NCBI GenBank assembly: GCA_963383645.1
Contig: OY726565.1
Location: 31,802,534 to 31,866,533 of the forward strand
Direction of reading: 5' to 3'
Length of the DNA stretch: 64,000 bases
DNA from: Muscardinus avellanarius
Taxonomy: Eukaryota; Chordata; Mammalia; Rodentia; Gliridae
The notes under the pieces were generated by a model. That model saw only the letters and a list, made by a program, of their open reading frames with translations. It did not search any database and had not been told where the DNA came from. The position numbers and the translations under genes were made by a program. The first letter of the stretch is position 1. Each line of letters starts with the position of its first letter. Shown in pieces: positions 5,384 to 64,000 of this stretch.

Positions 5384-6110
5384 TTTCTCTCTCTCCCCTC
5401 TCCCCTCTCCGCTCTCCCCTCTCCCCTCCTTCCTCCCCCTCCCCCCTCTCCCCCTTCCCCCCTCTCCTCTCCTCTCCTCTCCCCTCCCCTCCCCTCCCCT
5501 CCTTCCCTCCCCTCTCCTTCTCTCCTCCCCTCTCCTCCTCCCCTCCCCTCCCCTCCTCTCCTCTCTCTCTGCCCTCTCTCTTCTCTCTTCTCCTTCTCTT
5601 TCTCTCTCCCCCCTCTCTCCTTCTCTTCTCCTCTCTCTCTCCTTTCTCTCCTGTCTCTCTTCTCCTTCTCTCTCTCTTTCTCTCTCGTGTCTCTTCTCTT
5701 TCTCTTTCTCTCTCCTCTCCTGCCTCTTCTTTCTCTCTCTACTCTCTCTCCTGTCTCTTCTTCTTCTCTCTCTCTTTCTCTCTCTCTCTCCTGTCTCTTT
5801 CTCTTCCTCTCTCCTGTGTCTCTTCTCCTCTTTCTCTCTCTCCTCTCTCCTGTCTCTTCTTTTTCTTCTCTTTCTCTCTGTCTTTCCTCTCTCCTCTCTG
5901 TCCTGTCTCTTTTCTCTCTCTCCTCTCTCTTCTCTTTTCTTCTCTTTCTCTCTCTCTTTCCTCTCTCTCCTGTCTCTTCTCTTCTCTTCTCTTCTCTTCT
6001 CTTCTCTTCTCTTCTCTCTTCTCCCTCCCTCCCTCCCTCCCTCCCTCCCTCCCTCCCTCCCTCCCTCCTTCCCTCCCTCCCTCTTCTCCCCCTCTCCCCC
6101 ACCCTCTCAC
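5384..6110. repeat. Long polypyrimidine tract, (CT)n/(TCCC)n-rich
   Basis: About 730 bp almost purely C and T on the plus strand. It mixes CTCCCCT, TCTCTC, CTTCTCTT and, near 6020-6070, regular CCCT units. The long open frames on both strands (Ser/Leu/Pro-rich plus, Arg/Glu/Gly-rich minus) are low-complexity by-products. Such mirror-type purine/pyrimidine DNA can form triplexes and stall polymerases, so length is likely polymorphic. Confidence 0.95.
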
Positions 6111-33489: not shown

Positions 33490-33590
33490 TATTTCTTGTG
33501 GCACTGAGGATTGAGCCCAAGGCTATTCTACATTTGAGCTATACCCTCAACCCTATTTTATTTTTTATTTTGAAATAGGATTTCACTTAG
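33490..33590 (-). mobile_element. Antisense SINE, left piece (host of the composite element)
   Basis: ID half in antisense (TGTGGCACTGAGGATTGAGC, TTGAGCTATACCCTCAACCC) and linker TTTATTTTGAAATAGG. It stops abruptly at the 33591 boundary. The missing B1 half resumes at 37040. Confidence 0.82.
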
Positions 33591-33959
33591 AGGCCCAGTA
33601 AGACGCTGGGTTCTGGGCGGGGGTTGCACGCGGGGCACGCCAGCTGGGGCCCGGGTCGCGGGACTCTGGGCCCCGGCCAAACTGCGCGTAGCACGCCAGA
33701 CCCCTGGAGAAACCAGGCCCAGTAAGAAGCTGGGTTCTGGGCGGGGGTCGCGCGCGGGGCACGCCAGGTGGGGCCCGGGTCGCGGGACTCTGGGCCCCGG
33801 CCGAACTGCGTGTAGCACGCCAGACCCCTGGAGAAACCGGGCCCAGTAAGATGCTGGGTTCTGGGCGGGGGTCGCGGGGCACGCGAGCTGGGGCCCGGGT
33901 CGCAGGACTCTGGGCCCCAGGCCGAACTGCGAGTAGCACGCCAGACCCCTGGAGAAACC
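33591..33959 (+). repeat. Three 124-bp CpG-rich monomers
   Basis: Units start at 33591, 33715 and 33839 (lengths 124, 124 and 121) with GGCCCAGTAAGA-GCTGGGTT and end CCCCTGGAGAAACC. They are very similar to each other and rich in CpG and G runs. The element begins part-way through the repeat phase, so it may be 5' truncated. The minus-strand Pro/Ala/Arg-rich open frames here are by-products of the repeat. Confidence 0.93.
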
Positions 33960-34456
33960 GGGCCCAGAACAGAAAAAGATAAAGAAAAATATCGGAGAGG
34001 AGGTAAGAAAGCCGTTATGGATGCCAGGACACTGGAGATGCAGACAAAACTTATCTAAATGCACTGGAACTTATGGAAAAATTCGCCGTGAAAGAGGACT
34101 GCTATTTCTCTATATTGTTAAGAATCTCAGACATCACATATAAGGAGAGAGTTTAGCGGAGACCAAGGAGAAATGCGGTGTTGAAAGAGTTCTCCGCGAT
34201 GGTGGTGGAGACTTGTATTCAGGAGAAGCAGAAACCGGATCTTACCAACTTTATTTTTTTGGAGAAATTACACCAAATGTCGAATGCTACCATCACGCAT
34301 GCTTAGGAACACTGGACAACATTCAGAGTGGAAAAAGAGCCTGGGAAGGATTTGAAACGGTGGAGGCAGTGGCAATGCCAGTGGCCAATACTCAGGGGAG
34401 GCAGAGATCTGATACATTACACCTGGAACCTTTGAAATAATAACCACAGAGACAGT
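33960..34456 (+). other. Unique block 1 of the composite element
   Basis: Non-repetitive, moderately AT-rich. It starts with the monomer remnant GGGCCCAG and then an A-rich run. A good 5' splice-site match GAG|GTAAGAAAG is at 34000-34011 (GT at 34003). A 75-codon open stretch at 34213-34440 has no known motif. Origin unknown. Confidence 0.6.
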
Positions 34457-36570
34457 GATCAGAACCTGCTGAGGGGTTAGGCGGGTACCGGGGCCAGTGG
34501 CCGACATCGGAGCTTGCTGTGAGGCAAGGCCACTACTGAGGCCTCCGTGGCCGAGATTGGAACCTGCAGAGGGGTTAGACCGATGCTGGGGCCAGCGAGG
34601 CCGGCATTGGAGCCTGCCATGAGGCAAGGCTTGTGCTAGGGCCTCCGAGGTCGGGTCCGGAACTTGCTGAGGGGTTAGGCTGGTGCTGGGGTCAGCGAGG
34701 CTGGCATCGGAGCCTGCCGTGAGGCAAGGCTGGTACTGGGGCCTCCGAGGCCAGGATAAGAGCCTGCCGAGGGGTTAGGCTGGTGCTGGGGCCAGCGAGG
34801 CCGGCATCGGAGCCTGCCTTGAGGCAAGGCTGGTACTGAGGCCTCCGTGGCCAGGATAAGAGCCTGCCGAGGGGTTAGGCTGGTGCTGGGGCCAGCGAGG
34901 CCGGCATCGGAGCCTGCCATGAGGCATGACCAGTGCTGGGGCCTCCGAGGCTGTGATTGGAGCCTGCCGAGGGGTTAGGCTGGTGCTGGGGCCAGTGAGG
35001 CCGGCATTGGAGCCTGCCTTGAGGCAAGGCCAGTACTGGGGCCTCGAGGCCAGGATAAGAGCCTGCTGAGGGGTTAGGCTGGTGCTGGGGCCAGCGAGGC
35101 CGGCATCAGAGCCTGCCTTGAGGCAAGGCCGATACTGGGGCCTCTGAGGCCAGGATAAGAGCCTGCCGAGGGGTTAGGCCGGTGCTGGGGCCAACGAGGC
35201 CGGCATCGGAGCCTGCCTTGAGGCATGACCAGTGCTGGGGACTCCAAGGCCGGGATCGGAGCCTGCCGAGGGGTTAGGCCGGTGCTGGGGCCAGCGAGGC
35301 CGGCATCGGAGCCTGCCTTGAGGCAAGGCCGGTACTGGGGCCTCCGAGGCCAGGATAAGAGCCTGCCGAGGGGTTAGGCCGGTGCTGGGGCCAGCGAGGC
35401 CGGCATCAGAGCCTGCCGTGAGGCATGACCAGTGTTGGGGCCTCCGAGGCCGGGATCAGAGCCTGCCGAGGGGTTAGGCCGGTGCTGGGGCCAGCGAGGC
35501 CGGCATAGGAGCCTGCCTTGAGGCAAGGCCGGTACTGGGGCCTCGAGGCCAGGATAAGAGCCTGCCGAGGGGTTAGGCCGGTGCTGGGGCCAGTGAGGAG
35601 GGCATCGGGGCCTGCTGTGAGGCATGACCAGTGCTGGGGTCTCCGAGGCCGGGATCGGAGCCTGCCAAGCGGTTAGGCCGGTGCTGGGGCCAGTGAGGCC
35701 GGCATTGGAGCCTACCTTGAGGTAAGGCCGGTACTGGGGCCTCCGAGGCCAGGATAAGAGCCTGCCGAGGGTTTAGGCTGGTGCTGGGGCCAGCGAGGCT
35801 GGCATCGGAGCCTGCCGTGAAGTAAGGCCGATACTGGGGCCTCCTAGGCCAGGATAAGAGCCTGCTGAGGGGTTAGGCCAGTGCTGGAGCCAGTGAGGCC
35901 GGCATCGCAGCCTGCCGTGAGGCATGGCCGGTGCTGGGACCTCCGAGGCCAGTATCGGAGTCGGCCGAGGGGTTAGACCAGTGCTGGGGCCAGCGAGGCC
36001 GGCATCGGAGCCTGCCATGAGGCAAGGCTGGTACTGGGGCCTCCGAGCCCGGGATTGGAACCTGCCCAGGGGTGAGGCCGATGCTGGGGCCAGCGAGGCC
36101 AGCATCGGAGCCTGCCGTGAGGCAAGGCCGGTACTGGGGCTTCCGAGGCCAGGATAACAACCTGCCGAAGGGCTAGACCGGTGCTGGGGCCAGCAAGGCC
36201 GGCATCGGAGCCTGCCGTGAGGCGAGGCCAGCATCGGAGCCTGCCGTGAGACATGGCCAGTGCTGGGGCCTCCTAACCCGGGAACGGAACCCGCCGAGGG
36301 GTTAGGCCGGTGCTGGGGCCAGCGAGGCCGGCACCAGAGCCTGCCATGAGGCAAGGCTGGTACTGAGGCCTCCGAGCCCAGGATTGGAGCCTGCTGAGGG
36401 GTGAGACCGATGCTGGGGCCAGCAAGGCCGGCATTGGAGCCTGCCATGAGGCAAGGCCACTCCTGCGGCCTCCAAGGCCAGGACCGAAGCCAGCTTAGGG
36501 GTTAGACCGGTGCAGGGGCCAGCGAGACTAGACCTGGGGCCTCCCATGAGGCAAGGCCGCTGCTTGAGCC
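34457..36570 (+). repeat. VNTR: about 21 copies of a 100-bp dimer
   Basis: Period 100 bp, made of two related 50-bp halves. One carries GAGGGGTTAGGC-GGTGCTGG, the other TGAGGCAAGGC-GGTACTGG, each followed by a GGCC...GAGGCC block. Units starting GAGCCTGCCGAGGGG fall at 34760, 34860, 34960 and so on. Edge units are more diverged than central ones. Because 100 is not a multiple of 3, all minus-strand frames stay partly open, giving long artefactual repeat proteins. Confidence 0.95.
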
Positions 36571-36830
36571 AGCGAGGTATGGATCAGTCCACTGAGTAAC
36601 CAGGCCACTACTGGGGCCATCAAGAGTGGAATCGGTACTTGCAACGCAGCATGCACAGAGAAATATCGCAGAAAATATAAATCAGACGCTTCTCTTAATC
36701 AGCAATAACTAGGAGGAAAAGGGCAACAGGAAGAGGTTGAGCTATAGAAAGGGCCCTATAGTGAAGCAACTAATGTGACCAATCAGAGGGTATGTAATAC
36801 TGGAGGACGGAGCCTCTTTAAAACGCAGGA
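36571..36830 (+). other. Unique block 2 with CCAAT and TTTAAA motifs
   Basis: Between the VNTR and the L1-like tail. Contains GACCAATCAGAGG (CCAAT box, 36779-36783) and, 34 bp downstream, CTCTTTAAAACG (TTTAAA at 36818-36823). The CCAAT-to-TATA-like spacing resembles an LTR or pol II promoter, but activity is unproven and the origin is unknown. Confidence 0.5.
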
Positions 36831-37020
36831 GGTACATAAACAAATGTATCAAAGTAAATCACCAAAGAAGTGTGCGATGGAGGGAGGGGGAGGGAATGGG
36901 ATGGGGGCTGGAGGAGGGCTAATTGGATGATGTGTGCTTGTATATCCTCTCAAGTCTTGTACTCCAATGTGATTGATATATGACTACAATGCACCAATTT
37001 AAAAAATAAATTAATAAAAA
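36831..37020 (+). mobile_element. L1 3' UTR-derived tail of the composite
   Basis: The blocks follow the order of the L1 tails at 42.8, 43.1 and 54.8 kb: ATGTATCAAAGTAAATCACC, a G-rich tract (GAGGGAGGGGGAGGGAATGGG), GATGATGTGTGCTTGTAT, TATGACTACAATGCACCAAT, then A-rich. This supplies the sequence L1 reverse transcriptase would recognise. Confidence 0.8.
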
Positions 37021-37039
37021 GAAATAGGATTTCACTTAG

Positions 37040-38224: not shown

Positions 38225-39830
38225 TGTATTCCAGATAGTTTATTTTTAGACAATGAAAGTCCTGATGATTATATCTTAAATATTTAAAGTTCTTTTTATT
38301 CATAATTCAGGGACACTTTCTTTTGATAATTGTTTTAAGGCATGACTCCCTCCTTCATATTTGTAGAGAACGATTAAGTAAATGCCATTGCCATCCATTT
38401 AGTAGTACTAACAGGATTTTTTATTTTTAATACTTCTTTTGGTTGCTTAGTCTCTAGTATTTTACAAGCTGAAGTCTGCTATTATGCAATTGTTTTTACC
38501 TGTTAAGTCACTATTTCCACATTAATAATAGGGTACAGATATCAGGCTTCAGTTTAGATTATGACAGTACCTAATGTCTTTTCCACATTGACTCCAAGCA
38601 AGGAGACTTCCTCTCTTGTTTTCATGGGAATTTTATGAATTCCAATATGTATATTTTTCCATCTGTAGTATTTTATTTGCAATTGGAAATTACCAGTTGA
38701 GATATCACTTTTCTTATGAAAAATTTCCTAAGTCGGAGCAGCTAATGCTGATTTCAGCTACTCAAGTGGTATGATTTCTTTATGCATGACTAAGATTTTT
38801 TTTAAACATCTTTTCAGTTATTTATTTGGTACTTCTGGGTCAGTGAAACATCACATTATCCTTTTTTCATATTAGCCACCTTTTCGTAAGTGTAATTACT
38901 TTTTTCTGTTGTGTGGCTTTAAGTAGATGATTAAGATAAATGGAAACTCTCTTAGTTAATATGTAGCCATTTGATCTGGTACCAGTTTTTGATTGCAAGT
39001 GAAACTTCTTGATTGCAAATATTTATGTGTCCAGAAAATTCAGGTTGGAAATCCAATATAGCAACAACTTTTTATCTTTATTCATTATAAATTGTTTTCT
39101 TATGTTATATTTGAGATACTAGCCCAAATAGACACACGAGTCTAAATGAAAGGTCATTAGGAATACATGGAATTTTGGAGTCATCACAAAGCATTTTCTT
39201 ACTTTTTTAAAGTTGTTGTATGGAATATCACTTTGCTTCAAAAGAGATAGTGTTTTTCAAAGAGGAACATGCTTAAGTGAGAGACAGGGTATTTGTACAG
39301 GTCAGCTCTGCCAATAATTAGTTAAGGGAGTTAATCTGCTGAGCTCATGTTCTTCATCTGTAAAATTTGAGTAGGCCTGAAACAATTCTCAAGTTTCTAC
39401 TGGGGTTAGAAATAAGCTTCTTTTCTCTACACTTAACAACAAGGTATATATTTATTTTATTTCTTGCTGACTTTTTGATGGAGAAAGACCTTTAAAGCAG
39501 CTTTCTGGAAATTAAGAGGGCTAGAGTCCCCAGAGAGACAAACTTTGAAATTATCCTCAATTCTAAGCATCCTCCTCTTTGAGGGAACTCACCTCATTTG
39601 GTCTGGGAGCAGCTATTAGGTTGGAAAGCAGATTGCAGAAGTGGTTGATGGGCATTCTCATCCTCAATCCTAAAGAAGAATTCCCCCATCATTATGTAGT
39701 AATAATAGTTTAATTAGACCTTGGAGGAACTTGCATTAAGAATCTATGAAAAAATAATAGGAAGCTAATAAAAAATTAAATTTTATTGCCTCGTTCCTTC
39801 AAGTTTAAAATATTATTTTGTTTCCCTGCT
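38225..39830. other. Unassigned sequence, no gene seen
   Basis: No recognised repeat or coding signal over 1.6 kb. Confidence 0.5.
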
Positions 39831-39993
39831 ATGTCCACTTATGTCAAGCTGCAGAATAAAGGTGATGGGCAGTTCAATAGGCAGTTCTCAATCATGCTGC
39901 ACAAAAAAACTTATGTCCACTTATGTCAAGCTGCAGAATAAAGGTGATGGGCAGTTCAATAGGCAGTTCTCAATCATGCTGCACAAAAAAAAC
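39831..39993. repeat. Recent 82-bp tandem duplication
   Basis: The unit starting ATGTCCACTTATGTCAAGC occurs at 39831 and again at 39913. Copies are identical apart from the length of a terminal A run (7 versus 8). Confidence 0.95.
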
Positions 39994-42172: not shown

Positions 42173-43226
42173 CAATGGTGAATTGTGTAGCTATGAACAT
42201 AATATTCATGCATTGATTTGGTAGTTTGGTTTCCATTCTTTTGGGTAGATACCCAGAAGTGGTATTGCTGTATCATATGGTAGGTTTGTTCACATTCTTC
42301 TGAGGTCCTCCATATATTTTCCAAAGGGGTTGCACTAATTTGCAATCCCACCAACAGTGTATTAGAGTTTCCACTTCTCCACATCCTTGCCAGCATTTGC
42401 TGTTTGTGTGTTTGAATGATTGCCATTCTAGGTGGAGTTAGGTTAAATCTCAGGGTAGTTTTGATTTACATATCTCTGATTGCTAGTGATTGTGAACATT
42501 TTTCATACATTTATTGGCTATTTGAATTTCAAAGATGTCCATCAACAGATGAATAGATTACAAAACTATGAGATATGTACACAAAGGACTATTACTTGCC
42601 ATAAAAAATATGTCATTAACAGGAAAATGGATGGATATGGAGAACATTATGCTAAGTGAGATTAGTTAGTCACAAAATGTAAAAAATAGGATGTTCTCTC
42701 TAATACTCAGAAGCTAGGGAGCAAACGAGTCATAGAAGGAACTCCAAATGAAGGAGGAGAAGCAGTAGATGAGTAAGTAAGGAGGTGTAACTGGGGGTGA
42801 TGGGAGGGGGAAGAGGGAAATTCCCTAGTGTACATGATATACATTCACAAACATATCAAAGTCAATCACTAAGCCAAACACGAGAAGGAGGGAGAGGAGA
42901 GGGAATGGGGTGGGAATTAAGGAAGGCTAAATGAGTGATGTGTGCATGTGTGCCTCTACCATTGTGTTGTCCATTAAGATGTATGACTACAATGCACCAA
43001 TAAAAAAGAATATAAAACAAAACAAAATAAATTCCCTAATGCATATGACATACATTCATAAACATATCAAAGTCAATCACTAATCCAAACATGAGAAGGA
43101 GGAAGAGGGGAGGAAATGGGGTGGGAATTGGGGAAGGGCTAAATGAGTGATTTGGATATGTATGCATGCCTCTACCCTCTTGTACTGCATTAAGATGTAT
43201 GACTACATTGCACCAATTTAAGAAAA
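42173..43226 (+). mobile_element. Twin-primed L1 with duplicated 3' UTR
   Basis: A 17-bp near-perfect TSD AAGAGGCCAGACCATGG / AAGAGGCCAGGCCATGG (42156-42172 and 43227-43243) brackets three parts: an inverted distal ORF2 segment (about 42173-42533), the following sense segment from GATGTCCATCAACAGATGAA through the 3' UTR and an A-rich tail (to about 43030), and a second copy of about 190 bp of L1 3' UTR with its own tail (about 43031-43226). It cannot encode protein. Confidence 0.75.
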
Positions 43227-43243
43227 AAGAGGCCAGGCCATGG

Positions 43244-49274: not shown

Positions 49275-51141
<1,867 letters not shown>

Positions 51142-61599: not shown

Positions 61600-61765
61600 T
61601 CTTTTTTTATTTTTTTTATTTGTGCACTGTATTCATACATCATAATGGGATAAAAAAAAAAAACTTTTGTATACATACATGCACACATCGCCCAATTAGC
61701 CCCTACCCGATCCACACCCCGTTCCCTCCCCATCCCTCCTTCCCATGCTTGGCTTAGTGCTTGAC
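61600..61765 (-). mobile_element. L1 3' end, antisense
   Basis: Poly-T/A-rich start, GTGCACTGTATTCATACATC, ATACATGCACACATCGCCC, a C-rich tract and CTTGGCTTAGTGCTTGAC are the antisense L1 3' UTR. Little diverged. Confidence 0.72.
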
Positions 61766-61979
61766 ATCTAGTATTATAGCAATTTATCCAAAATTAACAA
61801 TGGTAATCTCACATAACAGTTTCATTTGTCTGATACCAAGCTTTTGATGACTTAAAGATAACATTTCAATTTCTTTTTGTTTTCTTTCTTACCAGAGAAT
61901 ATTTTTTCTCTTCTTTTTTTTTTAGATGAAACTATCATACATTTAATTATTTATTTTTCAGAAAAAAATCTATCCTAAT

Positions 61980-62645
61980 ATGGAATATGGACTCTAGATA
62001 CCCAAAACGATCTCAAAAAAGAACAAAGCTAGAAGATATATATTTTCTGATTTCAAACCATATAAAGCTACAATAATTGAAACAGTGTAGTACTGTTATA
62101 AAGGCAGATATATAAACCATTGAAGTTAAATAAAAGCCTAGAACTAAATTCTTCCATATATTGTCAAGTTATTTTTGATAAGGTTTCCATGAACATTTGG
62201 TAGAGGAAATAATAATATTTTAACTAAATATTGTTGAAAAATAATAATTACATGAAAAAGAATAAAATTGGACCCTTACCTAACAACATATACAAATATT
62301 AACTCAAAATATATAAAAGACCTAAATATAAATCTTAAGACTATAAACTTTTAGAAGAAAATCTGGGTCATGAAACCTCACAACATTGAAATTGGCAGTG
62401 ATTTCTTGGATATGATTTCAATGGCACAGGCAACAGAAGGGTAAACAAACTCCCTAAAAAATAAAAAGTAATATTGTATATCCAAAGACAATGTAAATAG
62501 TGTTAAAAGTTACTGATAGAATGGGATAAAATATTTCCAAATGCTATATCTGAAGGTATATTAATATTCCAACTAGAAATCCTAAAAATTAGCAACAATA
62601 AAAGCAAACAATACAATTTAGAGATATGTAAAAGACTAACATAAA
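61980..62645 (+). mobile_element. Old L1 ORF2 fragment
   Basis: TGATTTCAAACCATATAAAGC, CTACAATAATTGAAACAGTG, AAAACTATAAACTTTTAGAAG-type blocks and TTGAAATTGGCAGTGATTTC follow the L1 ORF2 order downstream of the reverse transcriptase. Heavily decayed. Confidence 0.6.
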
Positions 62646-62654
62646 TAATGAATC

Positions 62655-64000
62655 TCCAAAGATAACCAATCTTAGTTGCCTGTTGGATGGAAAATCTTGT
62701 TTCTCTGGTTCTGGTGTGTGTTACCTAATTCTTCTTTGTAGTTAATCTCTTTGAGTATTTTTTCTAGCACTAGATTTGAAGACATAAATTCCTTCAGTTT
62801 CTGATTGTCATGGAAGCTTCTTATTTCCCCATCTAATTTGATAGAAAGTTTTGCTGGGTAGAAAATTTTTGGCTGGAAGTTGTTTTCTTTCAGAGTTTGG
62901 AATATGTTACTCCAAGCCCTTCTGGCTCTCATGACTTGGTTTGGGAAATCTGGAGTGATTCTAACTGGTTTGCCTCTGAATGTCACTTGGCCCTTTGTTT
63001 TTGTTACCTTTAAGATTTTCTGCTTGGTTTCCACATTGGTCATTTTGACAATTATGTGGTGTGGGGATCCTCTTCTCCAATCCTGTCTAAAGGGAGTTCT
63101 ATAAGTTTCCTGGACCTGTGTATCAACCTCTTGCTCTATGTTTGGTAATTTTCTGCTATTATTTCCTTGAAGAGATTATTGATCCCTTTGGTTTCACCTT
63201 CTATTCCCTCCTCTATTCCAATTATTTTTAGGTTAGCTCTCTTAAAATGGGCCCATATTTCTTCAATGTAAGATTTCTGCTGTCGGATTTTTTTTCTAAA
63301 TTAGAAACTATGTGGTCATTTTTGGAATGATCATCTTCTAAGAGCAAAATTCTATTGTCCATGTGGTCTAATCAGTTGTTTGTACTTTGAATTGAGGCCT
63401 TTACTTCATTAATTGCATCCTTTATCTCTTTTTGGCTCTCTCTGAATTCTTTTCAGAACACCTCTATTATTTCTACAGTTATTTTCCTGATTTGAACTTC
63501 TAGAAATCTCTGAATTTCTGTTTTATCGAGTTCTGATGTTGTGGGCATTCATTGCTCCATTGTTATTCCTCTTTCCCGTGATTTTGGAAGTTTATGCCTT
63601 CTCTGGGTTCTTCCCTTGGGTCACTACAACTTCACTTAAGGTGCTCTGGATCTCGAGTCTTTGGTATCTCAGTCCCCACTTCTCCTTTACTAGGTTGTAT
63701 CGCAGAGTCTTAGACCCAGGGAGTCAATCGAGGCTACTTTAGGTCATGGGGGGAGGGGGTGCCAGGTTGGGCATTCTCCTATGGTGTGATATCTCTGCCA
63801 CTGCCACTCCCCCACTGGGTCAAGTCCCTGGGAGTGCAGTACTGGGATTTCTTCTCTAGGGGCCACAATTTGACTCACTGTTGTGAGTGCGCTGATGGAC
63901 CTGTAGTGGACTCGGTGAATTCACTGCTGCTGCTGCCGGTGGCAATATGGCACCGCTGCAACACGCTCAGCCGTGAGGCTGGTGTATTTCTTCTCTGGTT
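62655..64000 (-). mobile_element. L1 ORF1 and 5' UTR region, antisense, runs off the window
   Basis: On the minus strand: GC-rich 5' sequence at the right edge (63.55-64.0 kb), a decayed ORF1 N-terminal part (about 63.1-63.5 kb) and a readable ORF1 C-terminal part ending with TAA at 62672-62674. No ORF2 or poly(A) follows to the left; an older sense L1 piece abuts it. Confidence 0.75.
62672..63130 (-). pseudogene. L1 ORF1 protein, RNA-binding/C-terminal part, broken
   Basis: Resembles L1 ORF1p, the trimeric RNA chaperone that coats L1 RNA. Visible in order: SPHHIIVKM (end of the RRM lead-in), KGQVTFRGKPVRIT, ARRAWSNIF, NFQPKIFYPAKLS, EIRSFHDNQKLKEFM, then the stop. The frame is open upstream to about 63130, where a single-base loss in the block expected to read ENFPN shifts it. 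The open part beginning at ATG 63043 has 123 codons. It looks younger than the neighbouring L1 pieces. Confidence 0.78.

Follow-up and report, generated by a model that had tools for sequence, protein, structure and literature searches.

A candidate L1-mobilised composite retroelement with a VNTR in a rodent genome

Composite retroelements with a VNTR are termed specific to hominoid primates in passages of two published accounts (PMC4432496 and PMC7353768). The same passages describe the ape elements as being mobilised in trans by L1, with the VNTR influencing the efficiency of this process. SVA, LAVA, PVA, and FVA have their 5' region and VNTR in common, as set out in part of PMC4432496, which indicates that the ape VNTR composites have one origin. 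No rodent or squirrel VNTR composite was present among the matches listed for the open-access literature, and a consensus may exist in Repbase or Dfam.

Tandem repeats are also known from the 5' UTRs of L1 elements themselves. The mouse L1 5' UTR consists of an array of monomers followed by a unique tether, and the monomers act as promoters, according to excerpts of PMC9022269. In the L1 elements of horse and rhinoceros, 5' UTRs have been replaced by others without homology, and one type ancestrally carried three tandem repeats; the recruitment of unrelated 5' UTRs by L1 recurs in mammals, as stated in portions of PMC5872511. Additionally, according to a passage of PMC5857283, quiescence of L1 or SINE elements in the ground squirrel was reported by Platt and Ray (2012).

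We analyzed a stretch of rodent DNA of 64 kb, hereafter called the window, which contains a non-coding insert of 3430 bp (33591-37020) made up mostly of two tandem arrays and an L1-like tail; all features of the insert are given on the plus strand. The insert is flanked by two copies of the sequence GAAATAGGATTTCACTTAG (33572-33590 and 37021-37039), identical at 19 of 19 positions. TTTT precedes the 5' copy and the duplication begins with GAAA, so that the cut site reads TTTT|GAAA, one base different from TT/AAAA, which part of PMC13174262 gives as the consensus of the L1 endonuclease. The insert has an A-rich 3' end, where AATAAA occurs twice (37005 and 37013). We then rebuilt the empty site by joining the flanks at a single copy of the duplication, the join lying at base 190 of the query. 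This rebuilt site aligned across the join to further SINE copies of the window. The best of these matches (query 80-267 versus 31459-31271, minus strand) reached 73% and was free of gaps at the join, the second-best copy had small gaps near it, and more copies spanned the join, some of them with gaps nearby.

An exact pair of 19-mers is by itself not rare in the window, in which 64 overlapping k-mer pairs were repeated exactly at distances of 300-8000 bp when the arrays of the insert were excluded. The duplication is informative because the pair abuts both ends of the insert and its removal together with the insert restores a SINE. Taken together, the exact duplication, the restored SINE, and the A-rich end suggest that the event was an insertion of L1 type that hit an old SINE. 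The first-pass annotation, made from the sequence, had proposed both a 3.43-kb insertion with a perfect 19-bp duplication and the splitting of an older SINE, and our results agree with it on both points. The marks of L1-type insertion expected of a VNTR composite, namely a duplication, an A-rich 3' end, and an endonuclease-like site, were thus all found.

The insert begins with a GC-rich array of three 124-bp units and 5-8 further bases (33591-33967), and its start coincides with the edge of a unit. TRF called 3.1 copies with 93% matches, and the mean column identity was 92%. The GC content was 73% in 33591-33962, and GGGCGG occurred once in each unit; these units may represent promoter monomers. 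The array is followed by a unique non-coding block of 485 bp, U1 (33968-34452), for which sequence comparison found no further copy elsewhere in the 64-kb window. The RNA fold of both parts together (33591-34452) had a z score of -4.62, and none of 20 shuffles was equally stable.

The largest part of the insert is the VNTR (34453-36635), with 21 full units of 100 bp and a part of another (approximately 21.5 units), 68% GC. TRF called the period of 100, and wraparound alignment extended this call to the limits given here. The consensus unit is composed of two 50-bp halves that are alike at 39 of 50 positions. Units were weaker at both ends of the array, and 36571-36635 is its decayed last part. 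Variants of the unit reappeared at several places within the array, suggesting that it had a history before the present copy arose. The two GC-rich arrays (three units of 124 bp and about 21 of 100 bp) had been annotated as unrelated, and we confirmed this, since they shared a single weak 23-bp match (E 0.34). Only one of the two blocks annotated as unique retained that status: U1 stands, whereas the region at 36571-36830 comprises the end of the array to 36635 and then L1-3'-UTR-like sequence. Between U1 and this latter sequence, U2, there was a likeness of 16 bp (E 0.037).

The 3' part of the insert consists of U2 (36636-36825) and a terminal tail (36826-37020) with a G-rich stretch, the two AATAAA motifs, and the A-rich end. 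The L1-like character proposed earlier for the tail was borne out, with 70-74% identity to five L1 3' ends of the window at E below 1e-8. Judged by this similarity, the last ~195 bp are clearly of L1 origin. Two L1 3' ends also lie in direct tandem at 42836-43228, 85% alike over 189 bp. A profile built from four L1 copies of the window aligned to the insert in a single stretch (36672-37009), so that U2 is colinear with the tail from 36672, and the score came mainly from the tail. To exclude the contribution of the tail, 36636-36826 was scored alone with dinucleotide shuffles as the null. The four-copy profile, in which one of the four rows was nearly empty over the U2 region, gave 0.9 bits (match 36685-36790), a score reached by one of 2000 shuffles. 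A six-copy profile, made only after the four-copy result was known, gave 3.9 bits (match 36713-36790), reached by none of 5000 shuffles, the best of which scored 3.8. When U2 was used as a query with the insert masked, it picked 22263-22117 (minus strand, E 0.047), which lies next to an L1 3' end (22023-21921). The equivalent region was 75-81% alike among the L1 copies of the window, and U2 was far more diverged from them. These results support, more weakly than for the tail, an origin of U2 from an L1 3' UTR, and the L1-derived 3' part may then amount to ~0.3 kb.

We also considered U2 as LTR-derived sequence comparable to SINE-R, given that it contains CCAAT followed by TTTAAA. This pair, however, had five occurrences on the plus strand of the window (the one in U2 included) and seven on the minus strand, and the candidate was set aside also because U2 scores as L1 3' UTR.

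The insert had been described as containing no plausible gene, and the searches were in keeping with this. The longest stop-to-stop sense frame lying wholly within the insert had 98 aa. In two of the six frames of U1, Pfam gave no weighty match (best E 0.11) and no L1 domain. Neither the 98-aa sense frame of U1 nor a 242-aa antisense frame of the VNTR had a protein relative at E 10 or below in searches bounded by length and shared words. The protein database includes squirrel proteins, and the missing relatives are therefore not simply due to missing taxa. Comparison of the insert blocks with 55 ORF1 proteins gave nothing below E 0.1. U1 was examined as a possible host-gene exon, because plus frame 1 is protein-like between stops, but the matches were at best E 0.11 in Pfam and E 0.83 in the PDB, and this reading found no support. 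All 55 matches of the large search carried PF02994 and thus belonged to the ORF1 half of the joined query, long host genes falling outside the length limits. Rfam returned no match at the gathering score over the window. Exact patterns of the insert had no occurrence in viral contigs or GTDB genomes, and a squirrel-type ORF1 (P0010) had no relative in them; neither collection is expected to contain squirrel DNA, so these results carry little weight.

Several other elements were observed in the window. A broken L1-derived copy at 61606-64000 (minus strand) has a 5' region, the C-terminal part of ORF1 with Pfam Transposase_22 and its dsRBD-like domain, approximately 900 bp of further sequence, and a similar L1 3' end; from this arrangement, it appears to be half-L1-like or rearranged. 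The top matches of the ORF1 at 63175-62672 (minus strand) were three metagenome proteins (68-70%), followed by one bat protein (36%) and then by proteins of Sciurus vulgaris, Marmota marmota, and Spermophilus dauricus (50-54%). This set of relatives would be compatible with a squirrel, or an animal related to squirrels, as the host. Two long open frames at 49318-50836 (plus strand) belong to what we take to be a processed pseudogene of elongation factor 1-alpha. A CT-rich simple-repeat tract of 0.7 kb (5386-6097) is open in several frames, presumably due to its composition alone. At 39830-39991, TRF identified a perfect tandem duplication with an 82-bp unit (2.0 copies, 100%), which is so exact that it is either very recent or an assembly effect.

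The age of the copy was approached through CpG retention and private mutations. The observed/expected ratio of CpG was 0.76, 0.54, 0.50, and 0.48 in four blocks of the insert, the last being 36568-36870. In the last 150 bp of the insert it fell to 0.196, close to the values of the flanks (0.18 and 0.20). For the VNTR, mutations were counted in 14 central units of the 21 full ones, the first three and the last four being omitted as decayed or irregular. Across 924 sites, 14 non-CpG changes were private to a single unit (1.5%); a further 24 non-CpG changes that were shared, and the changes at CpG-capable columns (9 private, 56 shared), were set aside. This value sets an approximate ceiling on how far the copy has changed since it inserted, and no absolute age is claimed. 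With CpG retained upstream of the tail and few private mutations, the insert is probably young on these sequence measures, although this is less strongly supported than the insertion event.

Of the readings considered, the one to which we give about an even chance of being right is that the insert is a young copy, apparently complete at its 5' end, of a retroelement that is non-coding and non-autonomous and that L1 proteins move in trans. By analogy with mouse L1, the GC-rich 124-bp units would serve as a promoter of the monomer type, with RNA polymerase II starting at the edge of the first unit or close by. The RNA would pass through U1 and the VNTR and be polyadenylated at the L1-derived 3' end. 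L1 proteins would then capture this RNA, perhaps aided by its L1-like 3' sequence and the VNTR, and cut at TTTT|GAAA, and target-primed reverse transcription would produce the 19-bp duplication. We infer the promoter from the monomer promoters of L1 and the capture from the ape VNTR composites; the transcript, mobilisation in trans, and membership in a multi-copy family are likewise putative. In favor of such a composite are the L1-type insertion marks, the empty site that restores a SINE, the start on a unit edge, the lack of recognised coding sequence, the colinearity of U2 and the tail with the L1 copies of the window, the CpG retention, and the few private changes in the VNTR. Counted against it are the flank-like CpG ratio of the last 150 bp, the weak L1 likeness of U2 in a region that is 75-81% alike among the L1 copies of the window, and the lack of a second copy in the rest of the 64 kb. 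In addition, the 124-bp array, U1, and the VNTR could together be the 5' UTR of a host L1.

This last point leads to the main alternative, a strong rival although we regard it as less likely than not, in which an L1 subfamily of the host has both arrays and U1 (~3.05 kb) as its 5' UTR. Splicing of the RNA or a template jump would have removed ORF1 and ORF2 and joined the 5' UTR to the 3' UTR, and the copy would have moved as an ordinary L1. The insert has a 3' part that is L1 or L1-like, as a deleted L1 would, its tail being clear and the sequence upstream of it weak but above shuffles. Because the 3' block turned out to be part array and part L1-3'-UTR-like, the insert is more L1-derived than first thought, which raised the chance of a deleted L1. 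The 5' UTRs of horse and rhinoceros L1 elements range over 305-2855 bp, tend to be GC-rich, and are in some cases tandem-repeated, as given in portions of PMC5872511. The mouse monomers and tether (excerpts of PMC9022269) resemble the three 124-bp units followed by U1, an arrangement that would be usual for an L1 5' UTR. However, a 5' UTR containing two separate arrays with different units (0.4 kb and 2.2 kb) would be long, and comparison with the 55 ORF1 proteins revealed no ORF1 trace in the insert (best E 0.14). The one L1 5' region noted in the window (64000-63200, minus strand) had no score with the 124-bp array, with U1, or with the initial 400 bp of the VNTR; this copy is old, and 5' UTRs turn over.

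A single event could also have joined a VNTR-bearing host transcript to an L1 3' end during insertion, through the L1 reverse transcriptase or RNA ligation, and would have left a single-copy chimera. Chimeras of LINE-1 with mRNA fragments and small RNAs have been catalogued (part of PMC13174262), and the rest of the window yielded no second copy of the insert. Such an origin is nevertheless unlikely, in that the start of the insert coincides with a repeat-unit edge and its end is L1, and U2 has diverged far beyond the level seen among the L1 copies of the window, as if it had long been evolving apart. The repeat-rich middle of the insert is of a kind prone to misjoins by assemblers, but the exact duplication, the A-rich end, and the restored SINE make an assembly artefact, or an insertion by means other than retrotransposition, very improbable.

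If the composite reading is right, a rodent lineage may have evolved its own family of L1-dependent VNTR composites, with its own promoter array, VNTR, and L1-derived 3' end, and the SVA/LAVA design would have arisen at least twice in mammals. We put this forward tentatively, as a proposal somewhat more apt to fail than to hold. A second and unrelated design in rodents would give an independent case for asking what leads L1 proteins to take up RNAs with a VNTR, and the features common to the ape and rodent designs would be the likely reasons for this uptake. It would also matter in view of the quiescence reported for the ground squirrel. Should the insert instead be a deleted L1, it would suggest that a rodent L1 has a 5' UTR containing two tandem arrays, which would help in following L1 promoter turnover.

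Compared with known systems, the insert shares with the L1 elements that have tandem-repeat 5' UTRs (mouse A, Tf, and Gf, and horse type 1, as far as the excerpts of these sources describe them) the order of 5' tandem units, a unique stretch, and an L1 3' end. It differs from them in having no recognised ORF1 and a second, longer array. Half-L1 (HAL1) elements are likewise non-autonomous L1 derivatives, but they encode ORF1p (passages of PMC5753468), of which the comparison with ORF1 proteins found no trace in the insert.

The ape VNTR composites have a central VNTR of GC-rich units of 30-50 bp, to which the 68% GC and the paired 50-bp halves of the insert VNTR can be compared. SVA, LAVA, PVA, and FVA have in common 5' CT-hexamer repeats and an Alu-like region; no hexamer array was detected in the insert at the TRF default score, and no Alu-like domain was noticed in it on reading. 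Since it is without these 5' hexamer repeats, we do not class the insert among the four families. Like the SVA elements of great apes, it is composite, with a repetitive start, a VNTR, a separate 3' domain, and L1-type insertion; its 3' domain is L1-like, whereas that of SVA is derived from HERV-K. Differences from the gibbon LAVA element include the additional 124-bp array at the 5' end, the 100-bp VNTR unit (two halves of 50 bp) in place of 30-50 bp, the resemblance of the L1 piece to the L1 3' ends of the window itself, and the different host order. Even so, LAVA is non-coding, has a VNTR core, a 3' domain with a piece of L1, a poly(A)-type end, and a target-site duplication, and is moved by L1 (passages of PMC4432496 and PMC7353768), all of which it has in common with the insert as read here. 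On the best reading of this analogy, the layout of the insert is LAVA-like, and its function would resemble that of LAVA.
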